A stretch of 64,000 nt of DNA, taken from NCBI RefSeq assembly GCF_900167555.1, contig NZ_FUYF01000012.1, positions 1 through 64,000 on the forward strand, given 5' to 3'. Shown here in pieces: positions 1-18,669 of the stretch (the stretch's first letter is position 1; each line of letters begins with the position of its first letter). This stretch comes from Gemmiger formicilis. Lineage in GTDB: Bacteria > Bacillota > Clostridia > Oscillospirales > Ruminococcaceae. The translations under genes were made by a program, and so were the position numbers. The notes beneath the pieces are model-generated. The model made no database searches. It saw only the letters and a program-made list of their open reading frames with translations, and was not told the DNA's origin.

Positions 1-399
1 CAATGCTCATGTACGGTAAAGAAGCAAGCAACCGAAAACAATAGATAGACCGCCAGCACTACACTATTCCGAACCAAAGACCAAAAGATAAGCATTTTGA
101 GAAAATCTAAACTTTTGGATTTTCCTACAATGCCGACTACGGCGGAATCCCTCCCACTCCTTATATATTTCTTTCTGTATACATTGAATTTGTATTTAGT
201 AAAATGCAGACAACACCACGGATCGGCTTTTGGCTGGACAATTCCAACCAAACACCGCAGCAGACAGTAGAAACCATTCTGAACGTTAGGAAGCCGGTAT
301 GATTGTTACATATAAGGGGAAGAAAAATTTCTTTTAGATACTTGTTTTCCTAAAACTGATGTGATATAATAATTCAATTCCAGAAAAGGAGTAAAAAAT
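1..399. other. Left edge region without a full gene
   Basis: AT-rich stretch upstream of tet(W). A 32-codon open frame at 204-302 on the plus strand (MQTTPRIGFWLDNS...) looks like the C-terminal tail of a longer protein, because nothing upstream continues it. It could be debris of the site where tet(W) arrived. I cannot name its family. The last 60 bases hold the tet(W) promoter, listed separately. Confidence 0.4.
342..370 (+). promoter_or_regulatory. tet(W) promoter
   Basis: TTGTTT at 342-347 and TATAAT at 365-370 with a 17-base spacer, a good sigma-A promoter. It lies 30 bases before the leader peptide start and is the only strong promoter between here and tet(W). Confidence 0.75.
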
Positions 400-423
400 A
401 TGCGGCAAGGTATTCTTAAATAA
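400..423 (+). CDS. tet(W) leader peptide MRQGILK
   Basis: A seven-codon open frame (ATG at 400, TAA at 421) preceded by an AAAAGGA ribosome binding site at 384-390. Its coding bases are one arm of an inverted repeat: 404-420 pairs with 496-513. In ribosomal-protection tetracycline resistance genes such as tet(M), translation of a short leader controls whether transcription reads through into the resistance gene. The arrangement here fits that scheme, with a drug-stalled ribosome expected to change leader RNA folding. The mechanism is inferred by analogy; the peptide, ribosome binding site and pairing are seen directly. Confidence 0.7.
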   Translation: MRQGILK

Positions 424-591
424 AACTATAATCAAATAGTGGGAACAAAGGATTATGATAGTCCCTTTTGTAGGGGCTTAGTTTTTTGTACCCAATTTAA
501 GAATACTTTTGCCTTATCAATTTTGACATATCCCCAAAAACAGCACTCACAAACAGGTGTATGCTGTATATGTGTATGTCCGCAAATTATC

Positions 592-630
592 ATCCCCAGT
601 GGTAAAAGTATTTTACTGCTGGGGATTTTT
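592..630 (+). terminator. Attenuator terminator before tet(W)
   Basis: Strong stem formed by CCCCAGTGGTAAAA (594-607) and TTTTACTGCTGGGG (611-624) with a 3-base loop, followed by a T run at 626-630. It sits between the leader peptide and tet(W), so it would stop transcription unless the upstream leader folds differently. Together with the 404-420/496-513 pairing this makes a complete transcriptional attenuator. Confidence 0.8.
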
Positions 631-664
631 ATGCCCTTCGGGGCAGTAAAGGGAGGACAATCAC

Positions 665-2584
665 ATGAAAATAATCAATATTGGAATTCTTGCCCATGTA
701 GACGCTGGAAAGACGACCTTGACGGAGAGCCTGCTATATGCCAGCGGAGCCATTTCAGAACCGGGGAGCGTCGAAAAAGGGACAACGAGGACGGACACCA
801 TGTTTTTGGAGCGGCAGCGTGGGATTACCATTCAAGCGGCAGTCACTTCCTTCCAGTGGCACAGATGTAAAGTCAACATTGTGGATACGCCCGGCCACAT
901 GGATTTTTTGGCGGAGGTGTACCGCTCTTTGGCTGTTTTAGATGGGGCCATCTTGGTGATCTCCGCTAAAGATGGCGTGCAGGCCCAGACCCGTATTCTG
1001 TTCCATGCCCTGCGGAAAATGAACATTCCCACCGTTATCTTTATCAACAAGATCGACCAGGCTGGCGTTGATTTGCAGAGCGTGGTTCAGTCTGTTCGGG
1101 ATAAGCTCTCCGCCGATATTATCATCAAGCAGACGGTGTCGCTGTCCCCGGAAATAGTCCTGGAGGAAAATACCGACATAGAAGCATGGGATGCGGTCAT
1201 CGAAAATAACGATAAATTATTGGAAAAGTATATCGCAGGAGAACCAATCAGCCGGGAAAAACTTGTGCGGGAGGAACAGCGGCGGGTTCAAGACGCCTCC
1301 CTGTTCCCGGTCTATTATGGCAGCGCCAAAAAGGGCCTTGGCATTCAACCGTTGATGGATGCGGTGACAGGGCTGTTCCAACCGATTGGGGAACAGGGGA
1401 GCGCCGCCCTATGCGGCAGCGTTTTCAAGGTGGAGTATACAGATTGCGGCCAGCGGCGTGTCTATCTACGGCTATACAGCGGAACGCTGCGCCTGCGGGA
1501 TACGGTGGCCCTGGCCGGGAGAGAAAAGCTGAAAATCACAGAGATGCGTATTCCATCCAAAGGGGAAATTGTTCGGACAGACACCGCTTATCCGGGTGAA
1601 ATTGTTATCCTTCCCAGCGACAGCGTGAGGTTAAACGATGTATTAGGGGACCCAACCCGGCTCCCTCGTAAAAGGTGGCGTGAGGACCCCCTCCCCATGC
1701 TGCGGACGTCGATTGCGCCGAAAACGGCAGCGCAAAGAGAACGGCTGCTGGACGCTCTTACGCAACTTGCGGATACTGACCCGCTTTTGCGCTGCGAGGT
1801 GGATTCCATCACCCATGAGATCATTCTTTCTTTTTTGGGCCGGGTGCAGTTGGAGGTTGTTTCCGCTTTGCTGTCGGAAAAATACAAGCTTGAAACAGTG
1901 GTAAAGGAACCCACCGTCATTTATATGGAGCGGCCGCTCAAAGCAGCCAGCCACACCATCCATATCGAGGTGCCGCCCAACCCGTTTTGGGCATCCATCG
2001 GACTGTCTGTTACACCACTCCCGCTTGGCTCCGGTGTACAATACGAGAGCCGGGTTTCGCTGGGATACTTGAACCAGAGTTTTCAAAACGCTGTCAGGGA
2101 TGGTATCCGTTACGGGCTGGAGCAGGGCTTGTTCGGCTGGAACGTAACGGACTGTAAGATTTGCTTTGAATACGGGCTTTATTACAGTCCGGTCAGCACG
2201 CCGGCGGACTTCCGCTCATTGGCCCCGATTGTATTGGAACAGGCATTGAAGGAATCAGGGACGCAACTGCTGGAACCTTATCTCTCCTTCACCCTCTATG
2301 CGCCCCGGGAATATCTTTCCAGGGCTTATCATGATGCACCGAAATACTGTGCCACCATCGAAACGGTCCAGGTAAAAAAGGATGAAGTTGTCTTTACTGG
2401 CGAGATTCCCGCCCGCTGTATACAGGCATACCGTACTGATCTGGCCTTTTACACCAACGGGCAGAGCGTATGCCTTACAGAACTGAAAGGGTATCAGGCC
2501 GCTGTCGGCAAGCCAGTCATCCAGCCCCGCCGTCCAAACAGCCGCCTGGACAAGGTGCGCTATATGTTTCAGAAGATAATGTAA
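665..2584 (+). CDS. tet(W): Tetracycline resistance ribosomal protection protein Tet(W)
   Basis: A 639-residue translational GTPase of the EF-G superfamily that binds tetracycline-blocked ribosomes and releases the drug in a GTP-dependent way. The G1 loop AHVDAGKT is at residues 10-17, the G3 motif DTPGH at 74-78 and the G4 motif NKID at 128-131; EF-G-like domains II to V follow. Length and sequence match Tet(W), which is 639 residues, rather than Tet(M) or Tet(O), as far as I can recall them. The ATG at 665 follows GGGAGG at 651-656. An intact leader/attenuator lies upstream, so expression is probably drug-inducible. The gene is the resistance cargo of the composite element. Its GC-rich codon use differs from the AT-rich genes immediately downstream, consistent with separate origins. 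Confidence 0.96.
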
Positions 2585-2665
2585 CGTCTTGCGCAATGCA
2601 AGCGTTCATTGCTGGCTATTGCGAAATATCATTGATAAAATCAGTATCAGAGAGGAGAAACTATT

Positions 2666-3121
2666 TTGAACCAGGAACAGACGAATATTACAACAGGAAA
2701 GCAAATACGTCATCTGCGAACACAATTGGGAATGACACAGGAAGAACTAGCCGGGGAATTGAATGTTACCCGGCAGGCACTATCGAATTGGGAGAGAGAT
2801 GTTAATGAACCCGATTTAAATATGTTGAAAAAAATTTGCTTTCTTTTTGGAGTCAACATGGACGATTTTGCGAAGGAGGTAATAACAAAGATGGAAACAT
2901 ATGAAAAAAAGGAGAAACGACAATTTAATAAGTACGATATGGCAATTGGACTTTTTTATGGTGTTGGTATATTTCTTGGCATTGGTATTTTCTTTGTTGG
3001 CGGTTTTATGACAATGTCAGGTGCAGGGTGGGGAGCATCACTATTTGGCGGTGGCTGTTTTTCTCTTGTATTTGGCTTGATATGCCATGCAGTTATTACA
3101 TTGAGAAGAAATGACAAATGA
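2666..3121 (+). CDS. Membrane-tethered XRE-family regulator
   Basis: A 151-residue protein beginning at a TTG codon 8-9 bases after GAGGAG. Residues about 9-65 form an XRE/Cro helix-turn-helix (IRHLRTQLGMTQEELAGEL, VTRQALSNWE). A charged linker is followed by two hydrophobic segments at about 92-115 and 119-143. This is a DNA-binding domain anchored in the membrane, a layout common in Firmicutes for regulators that answer to envelope or small-molecule signals. It lies 81 bases after tet(W) and could be read through from it. The target is unknown. A second, differently arranged membrane-anchored XRE protein lies at 16499-16837. Confidence 0.8.
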   Translation: MNQEQTNITTGKQIRHLRTQLGMTQEELAGELNVTRQALSNWERDVNEPDLNMLKKICFLFGVNMDDFAKEVITKMETYEKKEKRQFNKYDMAIGLFYGVGIFLGIGIFFVGGFMTMSGAGWGASLFGGGCFSLVFGLICHAVITLRRNDK

Positions 3122-3161
3122 TGACATATCCTGCTTTCTATACTTTTCGGTAATACCGAGT

Positions 3162-3202
3162 AAAAAAAGCCGCTGCTTTTGGCTTTCCAATAGCGGCGGC
3201 TT
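3162..3202. terminator. Hairpin after the XRE gene
   Basis: AAGCCGCTGC (3167-3176) pairs imperfectly with AGCGGCGGCTT (3192-3202). A run of seven A precedes it, so it is a proper T-tailed terminator for minus-strand transcription. It may also slow plus-strand transcripts. Confidence 0.5.
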
Positions 3203-3352
3203 AATGCAAGCGGCGGCAAAGGGAAATATCCTTTGAATACCTTACAGAAGAAAAGTTTTGCAGCATTACAAAAATAAAAGCCTATACCATTTTGGAAAGA
3301 AAAGATACATAATAGTCAAGACGACAACAATCAGAAGTTATGGAGGGTAACA

Positions 3353-4120
3353 ATGGAATATAGTAAGGAAGATTTAATGGAAGCAAAAAAGCAAATTTTG
3401 GGAGTGGGAGAGAACATGGGAACAGAGGAAAGTAAAAAAATCTGGGAGGAGAACGCACAATTTTGGGATAATGCAATGGGTGACGAATCTAATGAATTTC
3501 ACAGAGAGGTAGTGCGCCCCAAAGTAACGGAACTTCTATCTCCTAATCCTGCGGATTACATTTTGGATATTGCGTGTGGCAATGGAAATTATTCTTCGTA
3601 TCTTGCACAAAGAGGTGCTTCGGTTGTCGCTTTTGATTACAGCAAAAAAATGATAGAATTGGCTAAAAGACGGCAATCACAATATGCAAAACAAATTGAA
3701 TTTTGTGTGGCGGATGCGACCGATAGAAAAAGTATATTAGAATTAAAAAGAAATCGAGCCTTTACGAAAGCAGTTTCTAATATGGCAATTATGGATATTA
3801 CGGACATTGAACCACTTCTTATGGCTGTTTATGAACTGTTGCAGGAAAGCGGAATTTTTGTCTTTGCAACGCAACACCCTTGTTTTGTCACGTTGACTGA
3901 AAAATATATGACACCGCACAGTTACTATGATATAGCGATTGAAGGGCAACCGAAAGAGCAGATTTATTATCATCGTTCCATACAAGATATTTTTAACCTT
4001 TGTTTTAGAGCTGGATTTGTCATTGATGGATTTTATGAAGAATGTTTCAAAACCAACAAAGAAATTCCTATGGTAATGATAGTAAGGCTTAAGAAGGTAA
4101 AACGTGATAGCTTAAAATAA
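3353..4120 (+). CDS. Class I SAM-dependent methyltransferase
   Basis: A 255-residue cytoplasmic methyltransferase of the Rossmann type. The SAM-binding glycine motif LDIACGNGNYSSYL is at about residues 70-83, followed by an acidic loop (VVAFDYS, about 92-98) and motif II-like CVADATD (about 119-125). The substrate is unknown; UbiE/MenG-like small-molecule methylation is most likely. Two starts are possible. ATG 3353 follows TGGAGGG and is translated as given. ATG 3416 (MGTEESKKIWEEN) also has a purine-rich GGGAGAG upstream and begins where the methyltransferase homology should begin. The first 21 residues (MEYSKEDLMEAKKQI...) resemble the start of an unrelated small protein common in such elements, so the gene looks like a start-region fusion. 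Confidence 0.8.
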   Translation: MEYSKEDLMEAKKQILGVGENMGTEESKKIWEENAQFWDNAMGDESNEFHREVVRPKVTELLSPNPADYILDIACGNGNYSSYLAQRGASVVAFDYSKKMIELAKRRQSQYAKQIEFCVADATDRKSILELKRNRAFTKAVSNMAIMDITDIEPLLMAVYELLQESGIFVFATQHPCFVTLTEKYMTPHSYYDIAIEGQPKEQIYYHRSIQDIFNLCFRAGFVIDGFYEECFKTNKEIPMVMIVRLKKVKRDSLK

Positions 4121-4159
4121 ATTCAAGTTTGTCGGGTAAATAGCAAACCCAGCCGAGCC

Positions 4160-4199
4160 AGTCAACGATAAAATGAACGCCGCTTCGCGCCGTCGTTGA
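4160..4199. other. Hairpin upstream of the broken sigma-like gene
   Basis: TCAACGA and TCGTTGA form the arms around a GC-rich centre (CGCCGCTTCGCGCCG). A second GC-rich stem (GGGGCG ... CGCCCC) follows near 4214-4262. They lie in the 170-base gap after the methyltransferase and may end its transcript, but there is no clear T run. Confidence 0.4.
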
Positions 4200-4290
4200 C
4201 AGCCCCGCCCGTCTTTGCTGGTAGGCAATCAAGGGGCGACAGCAAGGAGTACTGCCGCCCCGCACTATTATTCAGAGAGGGGGAATTTCC

Positions 4291-4713
4291 ATGACCGAAG
4301 ATGAAGCCTACAAGGTGCATATCCAGTACACATTCAATGCCTTTTGCAAGGTAGTCATTCGTCACGCAGCCATAGATAAAATCTTGAAGCTGCGCCGGAG
4401 GTGGGAACGGGAAGTTTCCCTTGATTATCTGATGAGTGAAAAGTTTGTCCAGCTTGCCGAGCCGGAGTAGCTTGAAGAATATCTTTTTACCGCCTGCGGC
4501 CAGACCGCCGTTCTGTATCATGCGGAGCTTGCCGCCGCCCTTGCCCTTTTGCCGGAGCAGACGCAGGAAGAAATTTTTCGTTACTATTTCCTGCGCCAGC
4601 CGCAGCGAGTGATCGGCGTACATATTGGCCGGACACGCAGCACAGCGGGGCGGCATATCCGGCTTGCCTTGCAGCGGTTAAGGCGGCTCATGGAGGGAAA
4701 TGACTATGAGTAA
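4291..4713 (+). pseudogene. Sigma-70-like regulator interrupted by TAG
   Basis: An open frame starts at ATG 4291 (MTEDEAYKVHIQYTF) after GAGAGGGGG, runs 59 codons and meets TAG at 4468-4470. It then stays open in the same frame for a further 80 codons to TAA at 4711. The part after the stop carries the region-4-like helix-turn-helix (LALLPEQTQEEIFRYYFLR, RTRSTAGRHIRLALQRLRRL). Length (140 codons) and order match the intact pair at 46305-46736 plus 46743-46988 in the same window. The family consists of sigma-like proteins of Tn916/CTn-type elements. Since only one base is wrong, this is either a recent nonsense mutation or a site of amber read-through; the former is more likely. Confidence 0.75.
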
Positions 4714-4903
4714 ACTTCTCCCCTATGAAACAATCGTCAAAGCCCATGAGGGCGACCCGGACGCAATCGACACCATTCTTTCCCACTATGCCGGATATAT
4801 CCGCTACTGTTCCAAAGTACACGGGAAAGTCAACGCCGAAGTTGAGGAACATATAAAGCAACAGCTCATTGCCGCCCTGTTCAAATTTCGCTTTGACCGA
4901 TAA
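4706..4903 (+). CDS. Small helix-turn-helix protein (HTH_16-like)
   Basis: A 65-residue protein starting at ATG 4706 (MSKLLPYETIVKAHEGDPD). This start is preferred over ATG 4700 because GGAGGG at 4692-4697 is then correctly spaced. It overlaps the end of the sigma-like frame by 8 bases, so the two are translationally coupled. The N-terminal pattern (PYETIVKAHEGDPDAIDTILSHYAGYI) is the element-encoded helix-turn-helix family that follows sigma-like genes in Tn916-type elements; the paralogue at 46743-46988 has the same layout. Presumed role: control of conjugation or excision genes. Confidence 0.75.
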   Translation: MSKLLPYETIVKAHEGDPDAIDTILSHYAGYIRYCSKVHGKVNAEVEEHIKQQLIAALFKFRFDR

Positions 4904-5034
4904 ACAAAGAACAAACACTGGCTGTCATTAGCGGTTTCACTCCAGCCAGTTTACAATTCATCTATTCCTAAAGGAAGCAGGTCATAGTATAATAGAACCA
5001 ACGACAAATATACTTTTAGGGGAGATATAGCAAT

Positions 5035-5226
5035 ATGAAAAGTAATAAATACTTAACTATTGGCTTATTAACAGGATTTATTGTCGGTGGTTGCATAGGT
5101 GTGTTGGCATGGGCGTTTTTGCAAAATCTTTTTGCTATTTCTATTTGTGCAGGTATCGGAATGTTGATTGGAATTGTTATAGGTACATTGATTGATTATG
5201 AAAAAAATAATCATCAAGAGAAATAG
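5035..5226 (+). CDS. Small two-segment membrane protein
   Basis: A 63-residue hydrophobic protein with two probable membrane helices (about residues 8-29 and 33-54) separated by a short loop and ending in a charged tail (DYEKNNHQEK). Both helices are glycine-rich (GLLTGFIVGGCIGV, GIGMLIGIVIG), as in small glycine-zipper membrane proteins. The ATG follows GGGGAGATATAG. Its AT-rich composition resembles the XRE and methyltransferase genes and not the GC-rich mobilization genes that follow. Function unknown. Confidence 0.6.
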   Translation: MKSNKYLTIGLLTGFIVGGCIGVLAWAFLQNLFAISICAGIGMLIGIVIGTLIDYEKNNHQEK

Positions 5227-5274
5227 AAAAAATGCACAATGCCTTAAAGGGAAAACAGGAATTTATTGTGCTAT

Positions 5275-5379
5275 CCATCATCGGGCCAACCTGACCTGAA
5301 CTTTCAAAACTGAATATCCACCGCCCATCGGCGGCCAGCGAAAGCAGTAAGTCTGAAAAAGATTTGCTGCTTTTTTCTT
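5275..5379 (+). repeat. Conserved structured leader, copy A
   Basis: About 105 bases, closely similar to copy B at 16858-16965. Shared blocks are CATCATCGGGCCA, CTTTCAAAACTGAATA, a CCGCC...GGCGG stem, and a final AGCAG...CTGCTTTTTT hairpin with a T run. Each copy lies upstream of the mobilization genes of its element (mobC/relaxase here, MobA/MobL there). The hairpin with its T run looks like a terminator, so the block could be a transcriptional attenuator or insulator for the mob operon. Confidence 0.6.
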
Positions 5380-5687
5380 TATCCGTTTGGCAAAATCGCA
5401 AAGTCATCCGTAGTAGGTAGGTGAAGCCGGAAACAAAAAATTTTCTGCGGCGGTAGCCAAATCTGCATTTTCTGTATTTCTAAGGCAAAGGAAAATTTGA
5501 GAAAATTCCCGGCAAGCGGGTAGCTGGCGGCCTTTGAAATGTATCTTTAGCGGAAAGAAAGAACTGCGGGTAAAAATCGCCCCACGCCGTAAGATTTTTG
5601 CAGAAATCCGGCCAAAACAGGCGGCAGCTATACGAGTAGTAAGTGCAAGGGGAAATCTACGGCTTACTTAGAGCAAGTTTCTACCAC

Positions 5688-5790
5688 GGTGCCAAAATCC
5701 GCAATTCTGCGGTTTTGCCCCTCGCGGGAAACTTGTTGGGGAGTGCCTTCCCCAAACCCTGCTATGCGGCTTACGCCGCAAAAATATTTC
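5688..5790 (+). other. oriT: Candidate origin of transfer of element A
   Basis: Two inverted repeats in tandem: AAAATCCGCA/TGCGGTTTT around 5694-5716, and TTGGGGA/TCCCCAA with a 6-base loop at 5736-5755. The second includes CTTGTTGGGGAGT, almost identical to CTTGCTGGGGAGT found upstream of the minus-strand mobC at 39807. Position directly before mobC and the relaxase, the inverted repeats, and sharing of the motif with a second relaxase locus all fit oriT. The nick base cannot be assigned. Confidence 0.5.
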
Positions 5791-5872
5791 TGTCCGGCAG
5801 ACAGGAAATGCCCCGAAAATAGCTAACAGACCAGCCCATTTTTTGTGATAAGTGAAAGGAGGTTTACAGCCC

Positions 5873-6271
5873 ATGCCGAAGCGATACAACACCCCCCACC
5901 GCAGCCATGTTGTGAAAACCCGGCTGACCGATGAAGAATACGCCGACTTCACAGAACGGCTTGCGCCCTATGGTATCAGTCAGTCCGAATTTCTCCGGCA
6001 GGCCATCCGGCGCACTACCATACGCCCCGTACTCCATGTGTCGTCAGTCAATGACGAGCTGCTCTCCGCTGTCGGGAAGCTCACAGCCGAGTACGGCAGG
6101 ATTGGCGGCAATCTCAACCAGATTGCCCGCACCCTCAACGAGTGGCATAGCCCCTACCCGGCTATGGCAAAGGAATTGCGGGAAGCGGCCGCCGACCTTG
6201 CCGCCCTCAAGTATGAAGTCCTAAAGAAAGTAGGTGACGCCGTTGGCAACACTCAAGCATTTAGGCTCTAA
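5873..6271 (+). CDS. mobC: MobC-like relaxosome accessory protein
   Basis: A 132-residue protein that should bind the transfer origin and help the relaxase open the strands. The N-terminus carries a ribbon-helix-helix-like stretch (VVKTRLTDEEYADFTERLAPYGISQSEFLRQAI, about residues 13-45), and the MobC signature (GRIGGNLNQIARTLNE, about 78-93) follows. ATG 5873 is preceded by AAAGGAGGT at 5855-5863; the upstream GTG at 5852 lies inside the ribosome binding site and is rejected. It overlaps the relaxase gene by 38 bases, so the two are coupled. Confidence 0.85.
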   Translation: MPKRYNTPHRSHVVKTRLTDEEYADFTERLAPYGISQSEFLRQAIRRTTIRPVLHVSSVNDELLSAVGKLTAEYGRIGGNLNQIARTLNEWHSPYPAMAKELREAAADLAALKYEVLKKVGDAVGNTQAFRL

Positions 6272-7910
6272 GAACGCCGACTACGGAGCCGCCGAACAAT
6301 ACCTGCTCTTTGAGCATGACGAATTTACTATGAAGCCCGTCCTTGATGAAAACGGCAGGCTTATCCCCCGTGAGGATTATCGCTTGTCCACGCTGAACTG
6401 CGGCGGCGAGGATTTTGCCGTTGCGTGTATGCGCTCCAATCTCCGCTATGAGAAAAATCAGCGGCGGGAGGATGTGAAAAGCCACCACTATATCATCAGC
6501 TTTGACCCACGGGACGGGCCGGACAACGGCCTGACCGTAGACCGGGCGCAGGCGTTGGGGGAGCAATTCTGTAAAGAGCATTTCCCCGGCCATCAGGCCC
6601 TTGTCTGCACCCACCCGGACGGGCATAACCACAGCGGCAACATCCATGTGCATATCGTCATTAACAGCCTGCGGATAGAGGAAGTGCCGTTCCTGCCCTA
6701 CATGGACAGGCCAGCGGACACGAAAGCCGGGTGCAAGCACCGCTGCACCGACGCAGCCCTACGCTACTTCAAGTCCGAGGTCATGGAGATGTGCCACCGG
6801 GAAGGACTTTACCAAATCGACCTCTTGAACGGCAGCAAGAACCGTGTCACAGACCGGGAATATTGGGCGCAGAAAAAGGGACAGGCCGCACTGGACAAGC
6901 AGAACGCCCCCATGATTGCAGGCGGTATCACGCCCCGGCAGACCAAGTTTGAAACGAACAAGGAGAAGCTGCGGCAGACCCTACGGAAAGCCCTTGCCAC
7001 CGCTGCCAGCTTTGACGAGTTTTCCTCTCTGCTGTTGCGGGAGGGTGTGACCGTCAAGGAGAGCCGGGGGCGGCTGTCCTACCTCACGCCAGACAGGACG
7101 AAGCCTATCACCGCCCGGAAGCTGGGCGGCGACTTTGACCGCACCGCCGTCCTTGCCGTTTTGGAGCAGAACGCCCAGAGGGGCGTAACGGTTCGCTACA
7201 CCCCGCAGCACCAAGCCGCCAGAGCCGCCGAACAGACCGCAGCCATACCCGAATACCTACACGCCGGGAAAGGCCGCTTACAGGGCGAAAAGACAGGGAA
7301 AATCGACCCCAGACAGGACAGTGTGCAGCGGCTTGTGGACATTGAGCAGAAGATGGCCGAGGGCAAGGGCAAAGGCTATGAACGATGGGCGAAGATACAC
7401 AATCTGAAACAGGCCGCCAAGACCCTGACCATCTACCAACAGTACGGCTTTTCTTCCCCGGAACAGCTTGAAGCCGCCGTTGCTACCGCCTATCAGGAAA
7501 TGCGCCAGACCAGCGGCGAACTGAAAGCACTGGAAACGAAGCTGCAAGGGAAAAGGGAGTTGCGGCAACAGGTACTTGCCTATGCCAAGACCAAGCCCAT
7601 CCGCGAGGGGCTGAAAGCGCAGAAATCCGAGAAAGCCCGCGCCGCATACCGCCAGGCAAACGAGAGCGATTTTATCATAGCCGAAGCCGCCGCCCGGTAT
7701 TTCAAGGCACAGGGGCTTACCAAGCTGCCCGGCCGAAAAGCGTTGCAGGCCGAGATCGAGCAGCTTATCTCCGAGAAAGACGGCCTGTACAACACCTATC
7801 ACGAACAGAAGCAGCGGTTCAGGGAGTTGCAGACCGTCAAGCGGAACATCGACCAGATTTTGCGCCGGGAAGAGCCGCACCGCAGAAAGGAGCAGAGCCA
7901 TGAACGATAA
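6234..7910 (+). CDS. Relaxase/mobilization nuclease of element A
   Basis: A 558-residue HUH relaxase that would nick one strand at oriT, stay bound to the 5' end and lead the strand into the recipient. The metal-binding histidines are in HPDGHNHSGNIHVHIVINSL (about residues 126-145). An upstream histidine pair (KSHHYIISFDP) and an N-terminal YLLFEH segment complete the catalytic domain (about 1-230). The rest is a long charged helical tail. The start is GTG 6234 inside mobC; a weak AAAGAAAG lies before it. This is the MOBP-type relaxase found in Tn1549/Tn4451-like gut elements, distinct from the MobA/MobL-type at 17024. Confidence 0.88.
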   Translation: MTPLATLKHLGSKNADYGAAEQYLLFEHDEFTMKPVLDENGRLIPREDYRLSTLNCGGEDFAVACMRSNLRYEKNQRREDVKSHHYIISFDPRDGPDNGLTVDRAQALGEQFCKEHFPGHQALVCTHPDGHNHSGNIHVHIVINSLRIEEVPFLPYMDRPADTKAGCKHRCTDAALRYFKSEVMEMCHREGLYQIDLLNGSKNRVTDREYWAQKKGQAALDKQNAPMIAGGITPRQTKFETNKEKLRQTLRKALATAASFDEFSSLLLREGVTVKESRGRLSYLTPDRTKPITARKLGGDFDRTAVLAVLEQNAQRGVTVRYTPQHQAARAAEQTAAIPEYLHAGKGRLQGEKTGKIDPRQDSVQRLVDIEQKMAEGKGKGYERWAKIHNLKQAAKTLTIYQQYGFSSPEQLEAAVATAYQEMRQTSGELKALETKLQGKRELRQQVLAYAKTKPIREGLKAQKSEKARAAYRQANESDFIIAEAAARYFKAQGLTKLPGRKALQAEIEQLISEKDGLYNTYHEQKQRFRELQTVKRNIDQILRREEPHRRKEQSHER

Positions 7911-8286
7911 GCCGTCCCGCATGGACTACCGCCAGCACCAGGCAGCCCGCCGCCTTGTGCATGAGTGCTGTAACTACGACGAGGGGAACTGCCTGCTGTT
8001 AGACGACGGGGAGCCTTGCGTGTGCGTCCAGAGCATTTCCTATTCCCTCATGTGCCGCTGGTTCCGTGTGGCTGTCCTGCCCCTTGACGGGGAGCTGGCC
8101 GCAGCCCTCTTGTACCGGGGGAGCCGGAAACGCTGCGCGGTCTGCGGGGCGGCCTTTGTCCCCAAATCCAACCGGGGGAAATACTGCCCCGGCTGCGCCG
8201 GGTGCATGAAGAAACGCAAAGCCGCCGAGAGAAAGCGGAAACAAAGGCAGAAATGTCACGCTTTAGAGCCTTTCAAACCCGCATAA
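7900..8286 (+). CDS. Cysteine-rich VLP-domain protein
   Basis: A 128-residue protein overlapping the relaxase end by 11 bases, with ATG 7900 after AAGGAG. It has two cysteine clusters: ECCNYDEGNCLLLDDGEPCVC (about residues 24-44) and CAVCGAAFVPKSNRGKYCPGC (about 79-99), the second typical of a zinc ribbon. A basic tail follows (KKRKAAERKRKQRQK). This is the cysteine-rich VLP family that regularly follows the relaxase in these elements. The basic tail suggests nucleic-acid binding. The exact role is unknown. Confidence 0.8.
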   Translation: MNDKPSRMDYRQHQAARRLVHECCNYDEGNCLLLDDGEPCVCVQSISYSLMCRWFRVAVLPLDGELAAALLYRGSRKRCAVCGAAFVPKSNRGKYCPGCAGCMKKRKAAERKRKQRQKCHALEPFKPA

Positions 8287-8406
8287 ATCAAGGCTTTTTT
8301 CGTGGGTGTCAAAGGGTATGCGATACATTTATCCTTTCCCCCCGGAAATGCCGTCCTAATGCGTGACAAAGCCCAAAAACGACACAACACAGAGGGAGGT
8401 GATACT

Positions 8407-9153
8407 ATCGCTGATTATATCAGGGCAGACACCACGCTGCCCGCCTATCTTCCATACCCCCGTTTCCTGCTGAAAATGGAGATTTCACAGACCGCCAAGC
8501 TGCTGTATGCGCTTTTATTAGACCGCTCCACCCTGTCACAGAAGAACGGCTGGCAGGACGGCGAGGGCAGGATATTCATTGTCTACCCCGTTGCGGAGAT
8601 AGCGGAAATGCTGGACAAGGGTTGTACCGCCATCAAGGGAGCCTTGAAAGAACTGGACGCAGCCGGGCTTTTAGAACGGGAACGGCGGGGCTTCTCCGCA
8701 CCCAATCGGCTTTATGTGAAAGTGCCGCCTGTCCCAGTGGTACGGTTTTCCGACCAACTGATGGCCGGAAAAGCGACCCTCATACAGTCGGAAAAGCGAC
8801 CTTATGACGGTCGGAAAACCGACCCTATGATGGTCGGAAAACCGACCCCTAACAAAACTAATATAAACAACTTAATAGAGAACCAAACAATGAGAGCGAG
8901 TGGGGAGCCGCCCACAGCTTATGGCCGATATGAGAATATTTTTCTGTCAAAGGACGAATATGACGAGTTACAGGCAGAATACCCGGACAGGCTGGAACGG
9001 CTGATTGAGGAAATGAGCCATTACCTTGCCGCCAGCGGGAAAGCCTACCAGAATTATGCCGCCGCCTTGCACAGATGGGCGGCCAATGACAAAAAGGGAG
9101 CCGTAAAACAGGGCATCCCCGACTATACCTGTATGGAGGGAGAAAGCTTATGA
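8407..9153 (+). CDS. RepA-type replication initiator, apparent AUC start
   Basis: Homologous to replication initiator protein A of mobilizable elements. The N-terminal winged-helix part (MEISQTAKLLYALLLDRSTL..., IFIVYPVAEIAEML, AIKGALKELDAAGLLE) is followed by an iteron-bearing linker and a C-terminal domain. A near-perfect ribosome binding site, GGGAGGTGAT, is at 8394-8403 and is followed at ideal distance by ATC (8407-8409), then a reading IADYIRADTTLPAYLPYPRF where I would expect the protein to begin. No ATG is nearby. The frame can also be read from GTG 8302 or ATG 8359, but those upstream residues look random. I place the start at the ATC codon, or less likely at ATG 8359. A shorter paralogue of the N-terminal domain lies at 15343. 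Confidence 0.7.
   Translation: MADYIRADTTLPAYLPYPRFLLKMEISQTAKLLYALLLDRSTLSQKNGWQDGEGRIFIVYPVAEIAEMLDKGCTAIKGALKELDAAGLLERERRGFSAPNRLYVKVPPVPVVRFSDQLMAGKATLIQSEKRPYDGRKTDPMMVGKPTPNKTNINNLIENQTMRASGEPPTAYGRYENIFLSKDEYDELQAEYPDRLERLIEEMSHYLAASGKAYQNYAAALHRWAANDKKGAVKQGIPDYTCMEGESL
8740..8847 (+). repeat. Five 23-bp-spaced iterons inside repA
   Basis: Five 16-base units start at 8740, 8763, 8786, 8809 and 8832, exactly 23 bases apart. The best two read GGTCGGAAAACCGACC, a palindrome with an AAAA centre; the next are GGCCGGAAAAGCGACC and AGTCGGAAAAGCGACC. The first has TTTT in the centre. Because 23 is not a multiple of 3, the periodicity cannot come from the protein and must be kept at DNA level. 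RepA_N-type replicons carry their origin inside the rep gene, so this is the likely origin of replication or autoregulatory site. Confidence 0.85.
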
Positions 9154-9989
9154 CAAGTGAAATCAAAGATATTTTGGAGAACATGACAACCGCCGCCCCG
9201 GAGATGGAGGACTATATCGGCGAGGACGGACTGCTTTACTGCGGAAAGTGCCATACGCCGAAAGAAGCCTACTTCCCGGAGGGTAAGGAGCTGTTTGGCC
9301 GTGACCGCCACCCGGCAGAGTGCGACTGCCAGAGAGCCGCCCGTGAGCAGCGGCAGGCCGCCGAGGAACACCGCCGCCATGTGGAAGCCGTGGAAAATCT
9401 GAAACAGAGGGCTTTTGCCGACTCAGCCATGCAGCAATGGACATTCGAGAACGACAACGGCAGAAACCCGCAGACCGGGATTGCCCGGCGGTATGCGGAG
9501 CATTGGGAAGAAATGCAGGCCGAAAACATCGGCTGCCTGTTCTGGGGGAACGTCGGCAACGGGAAAAGCTACCTTGCGGGCTGTATCGCAAACGCCCTCA
9601 TGGAGAAAGAAGTCCCCGTATATATGACGAACTTCGCCGTTATCCTGGGCGACCTCTCTCCCGGCTTTACAGGCCGGAATGAGTATATTTCCCGCCTTTG
9701 CCGCTATCCGCTGCTTATCATTGACGACTTCGGCATGGAGCGTGGCACCGACTATGGACTGGAACAGGTATTCCATGTGATTGATACCCGATACCGCAGC
9801 AACAAGCCGCTGATCGCCACCACCAACCGCCCGCTGGACGAGTTGAAAAAGCCGACAGACACGGCCCATTCCCGGATTTATGACCGACTGCTGTCCATGT
9901 GCGTCCCGATACGCTTTACTGGCGTCAACTTCCGGCAGGAAACCGCAAAGCGGAAAATGGAAACCATGAAGAAACTGCTGGCTGAATGA
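9150..9989 (+). CDS. DnaC/IstB-like AAA+ ATPase
   Basis: A 279-residue ATPase overlapping repA by 4 bases (ATGA). A cysteine pair region (YCGKCHTPKEA ... CDCQ, about residues 30-55) precedes the AAA+ core. Walker A GNVGNGKS is at about residues 132-139 and Walker B LLIIDDFGME at about 188-197, with a sensor-like ATTNRP (about 223-228). It resembles helicase loaders, so it probably delivers a host replicative helicase to the RepA-bound origin. Together with repA it suggests the excised circle can replicate. Confidence 0.85.
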   Translation: MTSEIKDILENMTTAAPEMEDYIGEDGLLYCGKCHTPKEAYFPEGKELFGRDRHPAECDCQRAAREQRQAAEEHRRHVEAVENLKQRAFADSAMQQWTFENDNGRNPQTGIARRYAEHWEEMQAENIGCLFWGNVGNGKSYLAGCIANALMEKEVPVYMTNFAVILGDLSPGFTGRNEYISRLCRYPLLIIDDFGMERGTDYGLEQVFHVIDTRYRSNKPLIATTNRPLDELKKPTDTAHSRIYDRLLSMCVPIRFTGVNFRQETAKRKMETMKKLLAE

Positions 9990-10003
9990 AAGGAGTATTG
10001 CCT

Positions 10004-10192
10004 ATGGAGAATATCAAGCAGCACGACCACCGTACCACCCGCCGCCCCGACTGCGTGACGGAAATCCGCATGGGGAATACCGTTCTTGTCGTGTCCGGCT
10101 TTTTCAAGAAAGACACCACCAGCACCGCCGCCGACAAGATGGCGAGGGTACTGGAAGCGGAAGCCGCTGCTACACAAAAAAAGGCGATTTGA
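10004..10192 (+). CDS. tnpW: TnpW-family transposon protein
   Basis: A 62-residue protein of the TnpW family described from Tn4451 (pattern RIGNTVLVVSGFF here as EIRMGNTVLVVSGFFKKDTTSTAADKM). ATG 10004 follows AAGGAG. It lies just before the large serine recombinase, as do small proteins at 20863 and 47344 in the other two units. Function unknown; constant linkage to the recombinase suggests an accessory role in excision or its control. Confidence 0.8.
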   Translation: MENIKQHDHRTTRRPDCVTEIRMGNTVLVVSGFFKKDTTSTAADKMARVLEAEAAATQKKAI

Positions 10193-10231
10193 CAAGCTGT
10201 AAAGAAGCAGATTTATCACTTTTACCGCTGT

Positions 10232-11923
<1,692 letters not shown>

Positions 11924-11930
11924 CGCCTGA

Positions 11931-11978
11931 CCTATCCGACACAGCCCTAAGTGCCGGATAGGAACGGCAAAATTTTTT
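11931..11978 (+). terminator. Hairpin after recombinase A
   Basis: CCTATCCG (11931-11938) pairs with CGGATAGG (11955-11962); a T run follows at 11973-11978 after a 10-base gap. A likely transcript end or element-terminal structure. Confidence 0.5.
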
Positions 11979-12112
11979 ACACTTCTATTACTTCTTTATC
12001 GCACATTAGCAAAGAGCCAGGGCGTGAAGCAGTTCATGGCTAATTAGTTGGAACAAAAAACGAAAGGAAAAGCACAATCCAGACGGTATCAGCGGCAGGC
12101 TACAAGAATAAA

Positions 12113-12141
12113 TTGTGATTTCACAAGATTGGTGCTATAAT
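12113..12141 (+). promoter_or_regulatory. Promoter of the HTH-TnpV operon
   Basis: TTGTGA at 12113-12118 and TATAAT at 12136-12141 with a 17-base spacer. It is followed by a GC-rich hairpin (CCGGGGC...GCCCCGG, about 12159-12174) in the leader. Confidence 0.65.
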
Positions 12142-12204
12142 AAGAGAAAAGTTCCTGCCGGGGCAGCCGCCCCGGTGGTATAGATAGAAAGGCAGGAAAA
12201 CAAT

Positions 12205-12477
12205 ATGCACATCAGCTATAAGCCACTCTGGCACACACTGTTAGAGCGTGATATGAGAAAAGAGGATTTAAGGCTTGCCGCTGGTATGACAACAAATATG
12301 ATTGCCAACATGAGCAAAGAGGGAAAGCACATCAGCATGGATACATTAGCCCGTATCTGCGAAACGCTGAATTGTGAGATTACCGATGTGATTGAGTTAG
12401 TACCAGACGAGCCTGCTTCCACAGGAGGTAAGGAACATGAGCGAATTGAAACCAAGAATAACGGAAAACGGAATTGA
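12205..12477 (+). CDS. Cro/C1-type HTH regulator
   Basis: A 90-residue protein with a single compact helix-turn-helix (RDMRKEDLRLAAGMTTNMIANMSKEG, about residues 13-38; TLARICETLNCEITDVIEL, about 48-66), the pattern of the small YozG/HipB-like XRE regulators. Its end overlaps tnpV by 41 bases, so both are made from one transcript. The promoter at 12113-12141 serves them. Probably an autoregulator of the element. Confidence 0.8.
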   Translation: MHISYKPLWHTLLERDMRKEDLRLAAGMTTNMIANMSKEGKHISMDTLARICETLNCEITDVIELVPDEPASTGGKEHERIETKNNGKRN

Positions 12478-12814
12478 TTATATCCTTGTCGGAGATTATT
12501 ACATCCCGGACTTGAAACTGCCGGAGGAACACCGCCCTATCGGAAAGTACGGACGGATGCACCGGGAATATTTAAGGGAAGTCCACCCAGCCAGATTGAA
12601 TACATTGATACTGACCGGGGAATTGTGGACATATCTTGCAGACCTGAACGAACAGGCACAGGAACGGTTAGACACCATCATGGAGCAGATGAAAACTGCC
12701 GAGGGCGTAACCGAGGAATTGAAGCGTACCCACCAAATGGAATGGGTGCAGCGTTGCAATAACATTCATAACCGGGCAGAAGAAATTGTTTTGCATGAGA
12801 TGATTTATTCATAA
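12437..12814 (+). CDS. tnpV: TnpV-family transposon protein
   Basis: A 125-residue protein of the TnpV family known from Tn4451 (ITENGIDYILVGDYYIPDL at the N-terminus, ILTGELWTYLADLNEQAQERLDTIMEQM in the middle). ATG 12437 follows AGGAGGTAAGGAAC. Its biochemical role is not known; in Tn4451 it is dispensable for transposition as far as I recall. Marks the left part of element B. Confidence 0.85.
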   Translation: MSELKPRITENGIDYILVGDYYIPDLKLPEEHRPIGKYGRMHREYLREVHPARLNTLILTGELWTYLADLNEQAQERLDTIMEQMKTAEGVTEELKRTHQMEWVQRCNNIHNRAEEIVLHEMIYS

Positions 12815-12843
12815 CGGGAGCAATTAAATCGGAGGTATATAAG

Positions 12844-13806
12844 ATGATTGAAATTGTATTTGGTGAAAGTGCCTGTGGAAGTTTGAAAATTGCCCAAACT
12901 TACGGCAAGGGAAAGTATAGAGGAAGTGCTGTTTCAATATTTATGAGGCATGAAGACGGGAGTGTTCCATCTTCAGATGAAATGAAAAAAGCACAGCTTC
13001 AAGCACAGGAACAAGAACGCATTGCTTGGGAGAATGCTATTCCATTGGGAGGCAAGAGCTGTGATGTTTATTGTTTTGATATGGCTCTTAGTGTGGGAGA
13101 TATTTCTGATAATGGAATTGGCGAACAGCGGAAAAATGTTTTCAAGAAAATGCTGTCTGTCTGCTTTGTAGAGGATTTAGATTATCAGGTTGAAGAAAAA
13201 ATACAGAAAATTAAAACTACATTGACCTCAGTGATTGAACGATATGTAGCTGGGGAAGAAATTCGCATTTGGTATAGCTATAATCCAGATGAGCTTTGTG
13301 GTATGTATTGGCTTATGAAACAACTTCAACCCTTAAACTGCCAGACAACAATTTATTTGGTTAAGTTACCTACATGGGAATATGGAAAAGAAAATACTAT
13401 GACATCCAAAATAGCATGGGGCGAGGTCTCTCCTGGCGAATGGGGAAACTATATAACTCTACAAGAGAAAGCTAATCCTGTATTTCTTTCAGCTTGTGCT
13501 ATGAAATGGAATCAACTTCAAAATGAAAATGCACCTTTGCGTGCAATGTTAAATGGTAAATTGCAAAGCGTTTCAGAAGATATATATGATAGTTTCATTC
13601 TTCGTGAAATTGCGGAACAGCCAGAGCAATTCAAAATGGCTATTGTCATAGGTAATGTTTTAGGAAAATATCAACTTGGAATTAGTGATGTATGGATTTC
13701 CAATCGCATTGATAAAATGCTTGAAGATGGTGTGTTGGAAATTATACAGGACGCACCAAAGGGAGAAACAAATTATCGCCGAATATTAAGAAAACGAATG
13801 AAGTAA
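12844..13806 (+). CDS. DUF1835 and DUF3658 domain protein
   Basis: A 320-residue protein. The N-terminal part (MIEIVFGESACGSLKIAQ..., IRIWYSYNPDELCGMYWLMKQL) is the DUF1835 domain and the C-terminal part (about residues 225-315, LRAMLNGKLQSVSEDIYDSFIL) is DUF3658. Proteins of this pair are common in Firmicutes but have no established function. The AT-rich base composition, unlike the GC-rich mob and rep genes on both sides, marks it as cargo. It ends at a bidirectional terminator shared with the minus-strand XRE gene. Confidence 0.8.
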   Translation: MIEIVFGESACGSLKIAQTYGKGKYRGSAVSIFMRHEDGSVPSSDEMKKAQLQAQEQERIAWENAIPLGGKSCDVYCFDMALSVGDISDNGIGEQRKNVFKKMLSVCFVEDLDYQVEEKIQKIKTTLTSVIERYVAGEEIRIWYSYNPDELCGMYWLMKQLQPLNCQTTIYLVKLPTWEYGKENTMTSKIAWGEVSPGEWGNYITLQEKANPVFLSACAMKWNQLQNENAPLRAMLNGKLQSVSEDIYDSFILREIAEQPEQFKMAIVIGNVLGKYQLGISDVWISNRIDKMLEDGVLEIIQDAPKGETNYRRILRKRMK

Positions 13807-13827
13807 TAACCACAGCACAAACCGCTG

Positions 13828-13866
13828 CTACATGGAATCCAACAAACCATGCAACAGCGGTTTTCC
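13828..13866. terminator. Bidirectional terminator
   Basis: AAACCGCTGCTACATGG pairs with CCATGCAACAGCGGTTTT between two convergent genes; T-rich on both sides. Confidence 0.75.
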
Positions 13867-13867
13867 T

Positions 13868-14680
13868 TTACCGTTTTTTCCTCTGGTTGATAGGCGTTCC
13901 CGTTTTCTTTGATTTTTGGAGAATCCGAATAAGCCAGCGAAATTCTTCATCTGACAGATTTTTATAGTTGATACCGAGCTGCTTGCAGTAAAGCACTGCC
14001 AGTTTTTCCAAACGGCTGCCCTTGAAATTTTCGACCGCTTCCAGATTTTCTTTCAGTTCATTGGCAACAGTGGTCTGGGGCGCACTCTCACTATCCTTTT
14101 TATGGGTTTCCCGAATATCCCGGATAATCAGGTTTAGGTCATCCAGAACCATGTGGCTGAAATATTCATCATCACTGATATGGGCGGCTTGCAGCACTTT
14201 CAAATGTGGGTCATCTTCGCCAGGGCGATACCGTTCTATGATTTCATGTCGGACAGTATCGACAAGGGTGTTGAGGTTTTGAATCTGCATGGTGGCAATC
14301 CCATCCACATAAATCTCAATGTCCGCAAGAAACTTGATAAAGTCCTTATGGGTGGCAAGTTCGCAGAGCAGACGGTTGTTGATCCGACCGCTTTTCAGAA
14401 GTGCAACCATTTCATCGTTCAAATGCAGCTCCGTCAGTGGCGTGTTGATCTGCTCCCTGTTCTCTGTCCGGCACAGCAGATAATCGACGGAAACCCCATA
14501 GAAGTCTGCCAGCGTGATAAGGTTGCCATGATTGATTTCCTTAAAATCTTCTTTTTCATAACTGCCAAGGGCTGATTTAGAAATACCCGTTAGTTTTGAT
14601 AGTTCTTCCAGATTTAAGCCTTTGTCCTTGCGGAGTTCCCAAAGGCGTTCCTGTATGCTTGTTGCTCCTTTCATGGGCAC
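13868..14680 (-). CDS. XRE-family regulator with long C-terminal domain
   Basis: A 270-residue protein with an N-terminal XRE helix-turn-helix (residues about 9-65: IQERLWELRKDKGLNLEELSKLTGISKSALGSYE). A long C-terminal region without recognised catalytic motifs follows; it is mostly helical and charged (HKDFIKFLADIEIYVDGIATM, ILQKSKKTGTPINQRKKR). The DNA ahead of the start holds an imperfect inverted repeat (TTTCC...GGAAA near 14729-14746) that could be its operator. The gene is opposed to the rest of element B, as expected for a repressor that keeps it quiet. Start at the second ATG (MKGATS) is also possible. Confidence 0.8.
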   Translation of the reverse strand: MPMKGATSIQERLWELRKDKGLNLEELSKLTGISKSALGSYEKEDFKEINHGNLITLADFYGVSVDYLLCRTENREQINTPLTELHLNDEMVALLKSGRINNRLLCELATHKDFIKFLADIEIYVDGIATMQIQNLNTLVDTVRHEIIERYRPGEDDPHLKVLQAAHISDDEYFSHMVLDDLNLIIRDIRETHKKDSESAPQTTVANELKENLEAVENFKGSRLEKLAVLYCKQLGINYKNLSDEEFRWLIRILQKSKKTGTPINQRKKR

Positions 14681-15157
14681 ACGCTCCTTTCCAACGGTTT
14701 CATTGCTGCCGCTTATCTGGATTATATCACACTTTCCGTAATCGTGGAAATTTCTGATTTTTACCCTTAATTCCTACTTTGTGGACATACGGCACAGGGC
14801 ACAAAAATGTTCTATGATACAGGTAGTTCATCGATGGATTATTCCAATCGAATGACCAGCCTGTGTGGGATATGCTTCCCCGGCGATGTAGCGCCATGAA
14901 TTTTGGCAGGGATATGGAGGAACCCTGACCAAAACGAGCGTACCAAAGGGAGCGATACGCCGCTGTGAGATTCAGGGGAGGAACGACACCGGGGAGAACT
15001 GGCGAACTGACACCGAAATGATACCGAAACACAACAATCTGATAGGGGGACAGTCTACCCTATCGCTGATACTTCGGGAGATTTTAAGCGGCTCTATGGC
15101 TGTAATTTTACCGAAAATCGCCCCGAAACCATACACTAAAACGGGAGGAAGCGCAAT
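14681..15157. other. Control region of element B
   Basis: About 475 bases without a convincing gene. It contains the divergent promoter area of the minus-strand XRE repressor, with TTTCCgtaatCGTGGAAA-like dyad symmetry near 14729-14746. A GGATAGGG-type dyad lies near 15042-15063 (GATAGGGGG ... TACCCTATC), which could be an operator or hairpin in the leader of the 15158 gene. No RNA gene recognised. Confidence 0.5.
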
Positions 15158-15346
15158 ATGCCGAGAATGAGCAAAAAGAGGAAGTATGAGCTTTCCTTTT
15201 ACCTCAATGACCGGGGGCGTGTCACTTACAACGAATTATGCCGGAAATGCCAGCATGGGTGCAGGCAGAGCTTCCGGGCAGTTGTGGTTGACTGCCCTCT
15301 TTATTTATCCAAACGAGCAAAGAAAAAGGAGGAACACACAAAATGA
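15158..15346 (+). CDS. Small four-cysteine protein
   Basis: A 62-residue basic protein with CRKCQHGCRQS ... VVVDCP (about residues 29-48), a probable zinc-binding knuckle. ATG 15158 follows GGGAGG. It overlaps the next gene by 4 bases, so it belongs to the replication/mobilization operon. Not assigned to a named family by me; a position-equivalent of the Cys-rich protein next to repA in element A. Confidence 0.6.
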   Translation: MPRMSKKRKYELSFYLNDRGRVTYNELCRKCQHGCRQSFRAVVVDCPLYLSKRAKKKEEHTK

Positions 15347-15684
15347 ATTTTGAATTTATGACGATAGACACACCCTTGCCGCCCTGTATGCCATTTCCCA
15401 GAGCGTTGACAGGATTTCCAGTCAGCAGCACAGCAAAGCTCATGTACTGCCGGATGCTGGACGCTATGCTCTCCAAAGGACAGGAGGACGAGAACGGAAT
15501 CCTGTTTGTCTGCTTCCCTGTCACAGCCATTGCCGCAGTCCTGTCCCGCAGCTCCATGACGGTCAAGCGTTCTCTGAATGAACTGGAAACTGCAGGACTT
15601 ATCATGCGGGTGCGTCAGAGCGTTGGAGAACCAAACAGGATTTATGTTCTGATACCGGGAAAGGAGGACGCTGCCCTTGCCTGA
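15343..15684 (+). CDS. RepA-like winged-helix protein, single domain
   Basis: A 113-residue protein clearly related to the N-terminal domain of the element A initiator: FPVSSTAKLMYCRMLDAMLS, LFVCFPVTAIAAVLSRSSMTVKRSLNELETAGLI and NRIYVLIPG correspond one by one to segments of the protein at 8407. It stops where the iteron-bearing linker of that protein begins, so it keeps the DNA-binding part only. It may regulate or initiate replication together with the CHC2 primase and VirE-type protein of this element. ATG 15343 follows AAGGAGG. Confidence 0.75.
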   Translation: MNFEFMTIDTPLPPCMPFPRALTGFPVSSTAKLMYCRMLDAMLSKGQEDENGILFVCFPVTAIAAVLSRSSMTVKRSLNELETAGLIMRVRQSVGEPNRIYVLIPGKEDAALA

Positions 15685-15973: not shown

Positions 15974-16013
15974 TTTACTAAGGGCGCAATTATACACCAC
16001 CCAAAGGTTGGTG
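15969..16013 (+). other. oriT: Candidate Q-type origin of transfer of element B
   Basis: A CTTAG/CTAAG inverted repeat (15969-15973, 15978-15982) runs into AAGGGCGCAATTATAC (15980-15995). It is followed by CACCACC/GGTTGGTG (15995-16001, 16006-16013). The core reads like the nick region of RSF1010/Ti-type (MOBQ) transfer origins as I remember it. Upstream of a MobA/MobL relaxase this is a strong oriT candidate. Confidence 0.7.
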
Positions 16014-16469: not shown

Positions 16470-16498
16470 AGCCAACAGCAACATTAGGAGGTGGTCAA

Positions 16499-16837: not shown

Positions 16838-16857
16838 TCTTCATGCAGATATTTTAT

Positions 16858-16965: not shown

Positions 16966-17023
16966 CCAAATGAGGTGGTAAAACGCCACCCCATCCACCA
17001 ATTACCGAAAGGAGGGACACGAA

Positions 17024-18604: not shown

Positions 18605-18669
18605 CAGGCACTTGCCATTTTCAAGCAGAGAATGTCAGGTGCTTTTCTTATTTTCAAGGAGGGATAGAT

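Follow-up and report, generated by a model that had tools for sequence, protein, structure and literature searches.

The repA gene of a mobilizable element integrated in the Gemmiger formicilis genome contains five 16-bp units at 8740-8847, and their starts (8740, 8763, 8786, 8809 and 8832) are spaced by exactly 23 bp. On sequence comparison, this array is likely (probability about 0.75) to provide the iterons of a theta origin of RepA_N type, situated inside its own initiator gene. All coordinates refer to the window, the whole 64,000-nt stretch of contig NZ_FUYF01000012.1 that was analysed. The features of the repA region are as follows.

8394..8403, + strand: Shine-Dalgarno-like GGGAGGTGAT, with 7 nt from its GGAGG to the ATC at 8407
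8407..9153, + strand: repA, RepA_N initiator (PF06970); open frame 8401-9153, probable start ATC 8407
8431..8739, + strand: N-terminal winged-helix DNA-binding domain of RepA, limits approximate (PF06970 at residues 27-85, PDB matches at residues 27-111)
8740..8755, + strand: iteron unit 1, GTACGGTTTTCCGACC, A-tract reversed
8763..8778, + strand: iteron unit 2, GGCCGGAAAAGCGACC
8786..8801, + strand: iteron unit 3, AGTCGGAAAAGCGACC
8809..8824, + strand: iteron unit 4, GGTCGGAAAACCGACC, arms perfect
8832..8847, + strand: iteron unit 5, GGTCGGAAAACCGACC, arms perfect, 16 bases the same as in unit 4
8848..8895, + strand: A+T-rich patch (73% A+T), candidate DNA-unwinding element
8908..9150, + strand: C-terminal domain of RepA, replisome-organizer-like (phrog_13246 'replisome organizer', residues 170-230, a weak match, E 1.6e-4)
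9150..9989, + strand: DnaC-like helicase loader (PF01695, NF005992, phrog_50 with E 4e-53), its start overlapping the repA stop (ATGA)

In units 4 and 5 all 6 pairs of the six-base inverted arms are matched around AAAA. Units 1-3 have 4/6 arm pairs each, and the centre of unit 1 is TTTT, not AAAA. Inverted repeats converging on a poly-A tract, a mark of RepA_N iterons (PMC7145576, available text), are therefore complete in units 4-5 and partial in units 1-3. The first-pass annotation had described five palindromic 16-mers every 23 bases; their number, places and spacing were reproduced, but strict palindromy holds for two of them, because only units 4 and 5 have 6/6 arm pairs. The position of the array, centrally within the rep coding sequence, is another RepA_N feature evident from the sequence. 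The repA frame at the starts of units 1-5 is 0, 2, 1, 0 and 2, so the coded residues differ between units, as had been pointed out before. The lag-23 self-identity of 8740-8854 was 0.696, a value reached by 0/3000 protein-keeping synonymous-codon shuffles (mean 0.481, maximum 0.620). Over the whole repA gene the best period was 23 (z 8.8), which was reached by 0/3000 synonymous and 0/2000 mononucleotide shuffles. A weaker 23-bp signal (z above 5.7) persisted in 825/3000 synonymous shuffles of repA, indicating that the periodicity is in part carried by the RepA protein sequence. The 23-bp array exceeds chance even with the RepA protein fixed. Stretches of 48 nt as A+T-rich as 8848-8895 represent 0.05% within 5852-11923, but 2.7% over the whole element.

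RepA matched PF06970 with 55.8 bits (Pfam cut-off 30) and its best PDB sequence matches were the RepA_N chains 4pta, 4pql, 5kbj and 4pt7 (E 3e-14 to 4e-11), in agreement with the earlier assignment to RepA_N-type initiators. An AlphaFold model of RepA built with 8 close sequences was poor (mean pLDDT 53.7), being lowest at residues 112-175, encoded by the array with the stretch immediately downstream, and in the last 20 residues. With this poor model, matches 1-8 of Foldseek were RepA_N structures, none reaching E 0.001. A pSK41-type C-terminal domain (about 120 aa, DnaG-interacting) was not found in RepA, whose C-domain measures about 81 aa. Such a domain was not treated as family-defining because, according to PMC5703833 (available text), conservation of RepA_N C-domains does not extend beyond the genus. 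The DnaC-like loader, also recognised in the first reading, was confirmed after repA by all three family models listed above.

The start of repA is probably the ATC at 8407. Other in-frame starts upstream of it are GTG 8302 and ATG 8359. The GGGAGGTGAT 10-mer and the ATC are kept in 80/80 related loci, which show 14 distinct sequences around the start, and the upstream ATG/GTG start codons vary among the 11 sequences compared; in two loci (L034 and L044) the upstream frame differs. A distant relative (L114) has an ATG beside the position of the ATC start. A literature search for a non-AUG start of a replication initiator found nothing related.

The repA gene belongs to element A, which possesses the following features.

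1..12014, + strand: element A, integrative mobilizable element, whole; identical on contig ends C42, C54, C44 and C57
665..2584, + strand: TetM/TetW/TetO/TetS-type ribosomal protection protein, cargo (NF033148, 1284.8 bits, cut-off 1100; under the Tet(M) cut-off), presumably tet(W)
2666..3121, + strand: helix-turn-helix regulator (PF01381)
3353..4120, + strand: methyltransferase-domain protein (PF13847 and others)
5852..6271, + strand: MobC/NikA-like relaxosome protein (PF21983, PF19514, PF05713)
6234..7910, + strand: relaxase (PF03432)
7900..8286, + strand: cysteine-rich VLP protein (PF14194)
10004..10192, + strand: TnpW (PF14202)
10304..11923, + strand: large serine recombinase (PF00239, PF07508, PF13408, PF14287)

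Element A thus combines its own relaxase, MobC-like protein and serine recombinase, as expected of an integrative mobilizable element (IME). No mating-apparatus family was found among the main ORFs searched (those for the cargo, regulator, methyltransferase, MobC-like protein, relaxase, VLP protein, RepA, loader, TnpW and recombinase). C42 and C54 diverge from each other immediately left of position 1, and C44 and C57 do so from 12015 onward. Two left and two right flanks imply two chromosomal copies of element A; four copies, considered because the protein search returned four identical repA places, were rejected on these contig ends. The left flank on C42 carries a TraG-type coupling-protein gene followed by Maff2 residues 1-40 (E 2e-16), ending at element A; the annotated Maff2 protein of plasmid pAPRE01 served as reference. 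After element A, Maff2 residues 43-51 match at 12015 (a weak match of nine residues, E 0.013). Residues 45-70 are found at 22822-22899, after element B (E 6e-11), with a TrbL/VirB6 gene beyond. The C42 flank is presumably paired with the C57 flank. From the Maff2 pieces and the flanking TraG and TrbL/VirB6 genes, elements A and B appear to be adjacent insertions in maff2 of a conjugative element. Element B (12015-22900), at the same maff2 site, possesses genes for TnpV, a MobQ relaxase, a CHC2 zinc-finger (primase-type) protein, a VapE-like protein and a serine recombinase. It also encodes a 113-aa RepA_N-like protein (15343-15684; 20.4 bits, under the cut-off of 30), for which no significant array was found.

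A genome scan found 96 relatives, of which 80 were kept; because two of its six search peptides fall within the array, the sample is biased towards it. Together with the window they make 81 sequences with 18 distinct repA genes, all ungapped and in the same 23-bp phase; over 750 nt, 14 loci show no difference from the window. In the 80 loci the lag-23 identity across the array region ranges from 0.60 to 0.70. The first-pass annotation had proposed to compare this phase in related repA genes and had regarded homologues lacking the repeats as evidence against its reading. The phase was conserved in 80/80 relatives kept from the 96 of this biased sample and none of them lacked the repeats; yet 13/44 distant RepA_N clusters have no such array. 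In the commonest variant, representing 38/81 sequences, the units are weakened, notably unit 2, and lag-23 identity is 0.60 versus 0.70.

Comparison of the window with a locus of this commonest variant (L048) gave, per site, 0.12 synonymous differences for the array and 0.08 for the following stretch, while the N- and C-domains had 0.41 and 0.46, respectively. Non-synonymous differences showed the reverse distribution, 0.16 in the array and 0.19 in the following stretch against 0.08 and 0.11 in the N- and C-domains. Changed synonymous sites numbered 4/38 in the array and A+T patch and 58/137 elsewhere in repA (Fisher P 2e-4), and the same test of array and patch between the window and another locus, L024, gave P 8e-5. 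Between L024 and L048 the synonymous change of the array (0.12) was little below that of the N- and C-domains (0.17 and 0.17), with pN/pS 0.39; with so small a contrast, DNA constraint is clear only across the deeper split. Portions of the relaxase gene and of the Cys-rich VLP gene likewise showed low synonymous change, and the effect was weak between nearer variants, so that it was rejected as a mark unique to the array. Among the segments of lowest synonymous change listed for L048, the one in repA (8824-8913) had a pN of 0.17 and the others 0-0.07. The Cys-rich VLP gene before repA contains stretches (8008-8277) with zero synonymous change between lineages, possibly reflecting recombination or control DNA.

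Five of the relatives have a RepA that is identical (L011, L017, L022) or 79% identical (L063, L082). L022 is an isolate record of Bifidobacterium boum, in which the RepA protein is identical up to its contig end. The other four come from metagenome bins, which may be contaminated, with the labels Fibrobacter, Negativicutes, Prevotella and Bacteroidales. In one genome, the element-bearing contigs (L027, L023 and L039) have coverage of 51, 48 and 49 according to the contig names, a similarity that does not point to an excess of circles in the culture. One scan of viral contigs for RepA relatives gave 6 pattern matches, none of them a relative.

To place the array in the wider family, PF06970 was sought in 100 relatives and, more broadly, in 391 class-level and 398 phylum-level genomes; loci came from up to 30 listed matches of each search, supplemented by 80 further stretches from the same matches. 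Removal of L170 (a run-of-N artefact) and of loci with <200 nt after the domain reduced 169 loci to 162, which with the window gave 163 usable domains; grouped at 60% N-domain identity, these fell into 57 clusters. In 37/57 clusters a tandem array exceeded the 99% level of a null preserving all dinucleotides, and the best period was 23 in 22 of them; among the twelve periods printed for null arrays exceeding this level, 23 does not occur. At the 99.9% level of a per-period null, which shuffles non-overlapping dinucleotides, a 23-bp array was detected in 31/57 clusters, a 15-bp array in 17, and arrays of 24 and 45 bp in 7 each; every other period was detected in <=4 of 57 clusters. Where the frame continues >=150 nt past the domain, 28/44 clusters have a 23-bp array and 13/44 have none at 22-24 bp. 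Where it ends <150 nt past the domain, 3/13 clusters have a 23-bp array. In the cases read, the DNA after the iterons of RepA_N genes often shows an A+T-rich repeat of 15 bp (AATAATACTGATATT-like), which is a candidate unwinding element. Plasmid rep loci were also analysed, ten being picked by hand from 40 listed of 2211 matching records. The best period was 23 in 7/10 of these and another in 3/10; one of these three, L275, lacks a rep annotation and was analysed as raw sequence.

Similarity of the array among the 85 genes with a 23-bp array was correlated with N-domain identity when the C-domain was held fixed (partial correlation 0.60; 0/500 permutations). It was not correlated with C-domain identity when the N-domain was held fixed (-0.03; 412/500 permutations). 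By these correlations the repeat sequence tracks the DNA-binding domain of RepA_N proteins, although the array adjoins the N-domain and linkage may explain part of the relation. A sibling element in the same genome (L266, C54:37000-43000) has an 87%-identical recombinase and also a relaxase, loader and TnpW. Its initiator is 46% identical to RepA over residues 160-250, in the C-domain, while its N-domain is Phage_rep_org_N. The gene of this initiator has no 23-bp signal (z 2.5); its best period is 18 (z 7.2), and its linker DNA shows 6-bp-type repeats. It appears that a change of DNA-binding domain goes with a change of its repeats.

Among the closest known arrangements is that of pSK41, a Staphylococcus aureus plasmid, in which a RepA_N N-domain is likewise followed by iterons with a 23-bp period centrally in rep. 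The pSK41 rep gene has four TGTCAAAAGGACAC units, the best three 98% identical, and shares with the window inverted arms around an A-tract and A+T-rich DNA after the last unit. According to the available text of PMC5703833, four Rep boxes in the central part of rep are the binding sites of the pSK41 N-domain, and the linker which they encode is dispensable. The two systems differ in iteron sequence, in being plasmid and integrated element, and in the C-domain, which in pSK41 is longer and DnaG-interacting (PMC5703833, available text) and in the window is replisome-organizer-like with a DnaC-like loader next to it. The earlier iteron reading of the array was strengthened by the same 23-bp period in pSK41 rep, by the reduced synonymous change against another lineage and by the family survey. 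The 115,566-bp circular plasmid pAPRE01 of Anaerococcus prevotii has a 23-bp array and a repA overlapping a gene for an ATP-binding protein (dnaC-like), as in the window. In the aligned parts the RepA and loader proteins of the two pairs are 29% and 35% identical, respectively. Unlike element A, pAPRE01 is a conjugative plasmid with its own transfer genes, and its iteron sequence is different. It also encodes elsewhere a phage-type replisome organizer, so RepA_N need not be its only initiator. As evidence that such a repA-dnaC pair replicates DNA, pAPRE01 is supporting, not conclusive.

Among integrated elements, Salmonella genomic island 1 (SGI1) is mobilizable like element A, and its excised form replicates in dependence on rep and a putative iteron-based origin. 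Its Rep has a RepA_C domain, it belongs to enterobacteria and needs a helper IncC plasmid for activation, and its origin lies downstream of rep and is not described as inside rep, in contrast to the array inside repA of element A (PMC7433901, available text). PLE, a Vibrio cholerae satellite, resembles element A in its RepA_N initiator, excisability and large serine recombinase, and its iterons are semi-palindromic around a poly-A tract like those of the window (PMC7145576, available text). PLE iterons, however, are about 30 bp and lie in a non-coding region, and its replication needs phage infection (excerpts of PMC7145576 and PMC8263062). The maff2 IMEs of Tn5252-related ICEs, such as IME_ScoC232_maff2, share with element A a serine integrase, the maff2 site, a replication protein and DnaC. 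The replication protein of IME_ScoC232_maff2 is a replisome organizer (both points from the available text of PMC5704250), whereas element A has a RepA_N N-domain with iterons. The TnGBS1/2 ICEs are integrated and encode a RepA_N protein as element A does, and their excised form is maintained by replication (PMC4701971, PMC5704250, available text); unlike A, they are conjugative and use a DDE transposase.

A theta origin of this kind would be expected to work as follows. The N-terminal winged-helix domain of RepA would bind the 23-bp-spaced units, and the A+T-rich patch at 8848-8895, just downstream of the array, would melt. The C-domain of RepA may then bring the DnaC-like loader, and with the loader the host helicase. 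Only the flexible linker between the two domains of RepA is encoded by the array, so the DNA can stay while the amino acids drift. In the integrated state the origin would be silent or act at a low level. After excision by the serine recombinase the circle would replicate and so survive division before transfer or re-integration. In this scheme RepA binding, melting, loader recruitment and circle replication are predicted steps, the last of which draw on knowledge of the RepA_N family (PMC5703833 and PMC7145576, available text). Replication of the excised circle of element A, as suggested in the first-pass annotation, is about as likely as not or slightly more so.

Other explanations of the array were considered. 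The DNA repeat is extremely improbable as a by-product of a repetitive protein linker. Some 23-bp signal does survive in the 825/3000 synonymous shuffles, but the reading frames of the units rotate, the observed periodicity is above every shuffle and, in comparison with L048, the amino acids of the array change faster and its synonymous bases slower than the rest of repA; on frame rotation, shuffles and substitution tests the protein-repeat explanation was disfavoured. There is very little likelihood that the constraint acts on the mRNA, with the array as a long hairpin controlling repA or dnaC expression. RNA folding is strong in the window (z -8.2) and in pSK41 (z -5.1), and the reversed unit 1 pairs over 13 bp with unit 4, the bases of which are the same in unit 5. 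Such folding, however, arises by construction, the repeats being palindromic; z is -3.2 in the majority variant and is not below -3 in 16/30 other clusters, and no Rfam family reached the gathering score in 1-12100.

Regulation would also be compatible with RepA binding an array, and one promoter-like match (8804-8831) is situated inside it. Such an array could be a RepA operator or a copy-control/incompatibility site, repressing or titrating, and not a replication start. Promoter-like matches, however, are at chance level in 7850-10320 (2 found against 1.6 expected), and the array, some 330 bp past the translation start, is followed by the A+T-rich patch and the loader gene, making this function unlikely. 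It is also unlikely that a plasmid origin which no longer works has left the array behind as a relic, the RepA_N protein having taken another role in transfer or maintenance. The reduced synonymous change over the array and A+T patch across the deeper split and the 23-bp phase kept in 80 relatives stand against such a relic. In its favour, the units are weakened in the majority variant, and other roles for chromosomal RepA_N proteins were speculated on by Weaver et al. 2009, as cited in the available text of PMC7145576.

RepA_N plasmids are already known to have their iterons within rep, and SGI1 is a known case of an IME that replicates after excision; what element A adds is the combination. 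It departs from known systems as an integrated element of a Gram-positive host, by its replisome-organizer-like C-domain accompanied by an encoded loader, and by the 23-bp period that more than half of the clusters in a broad survey share. According to the available text of two 2017 papers (PMC5704250 and PMC5357655), replication of excised IMEs was not studied or reported at that time. SGI1 was shown to replicate later (PMC7433901, available text), and the literature search found no replication test for a RepA_N IME of Firmicutes. It also found no report of a family-wide 23-bp period; key older RepA_N papers were outside this search, and the period may already be in print.

The origin reading can be put to a direct test, since a common element offers a defined array, an A+T patch and a loader. 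Being shared by diverse RepA_N genes, the period of 23 bp is also a simple signature by which integrated elements could be screened for such origins, and a geometric constraint to set against RepA_N-DNA structures. The chances are evenly balanced that a whole class of widespread gut mobilizable elements are hidden theta plasmids, with a 23-bp-phased origin in the initiator gene, their own loader and an excised circle that replicates with little need of host initiation proteins; the 23-bp period would in that case be a family-wide geometric rule arising from the assembly of RepA_N domains on DNA. If so, this would help to explain the presence of identical copies in isolates of at least two phyla.
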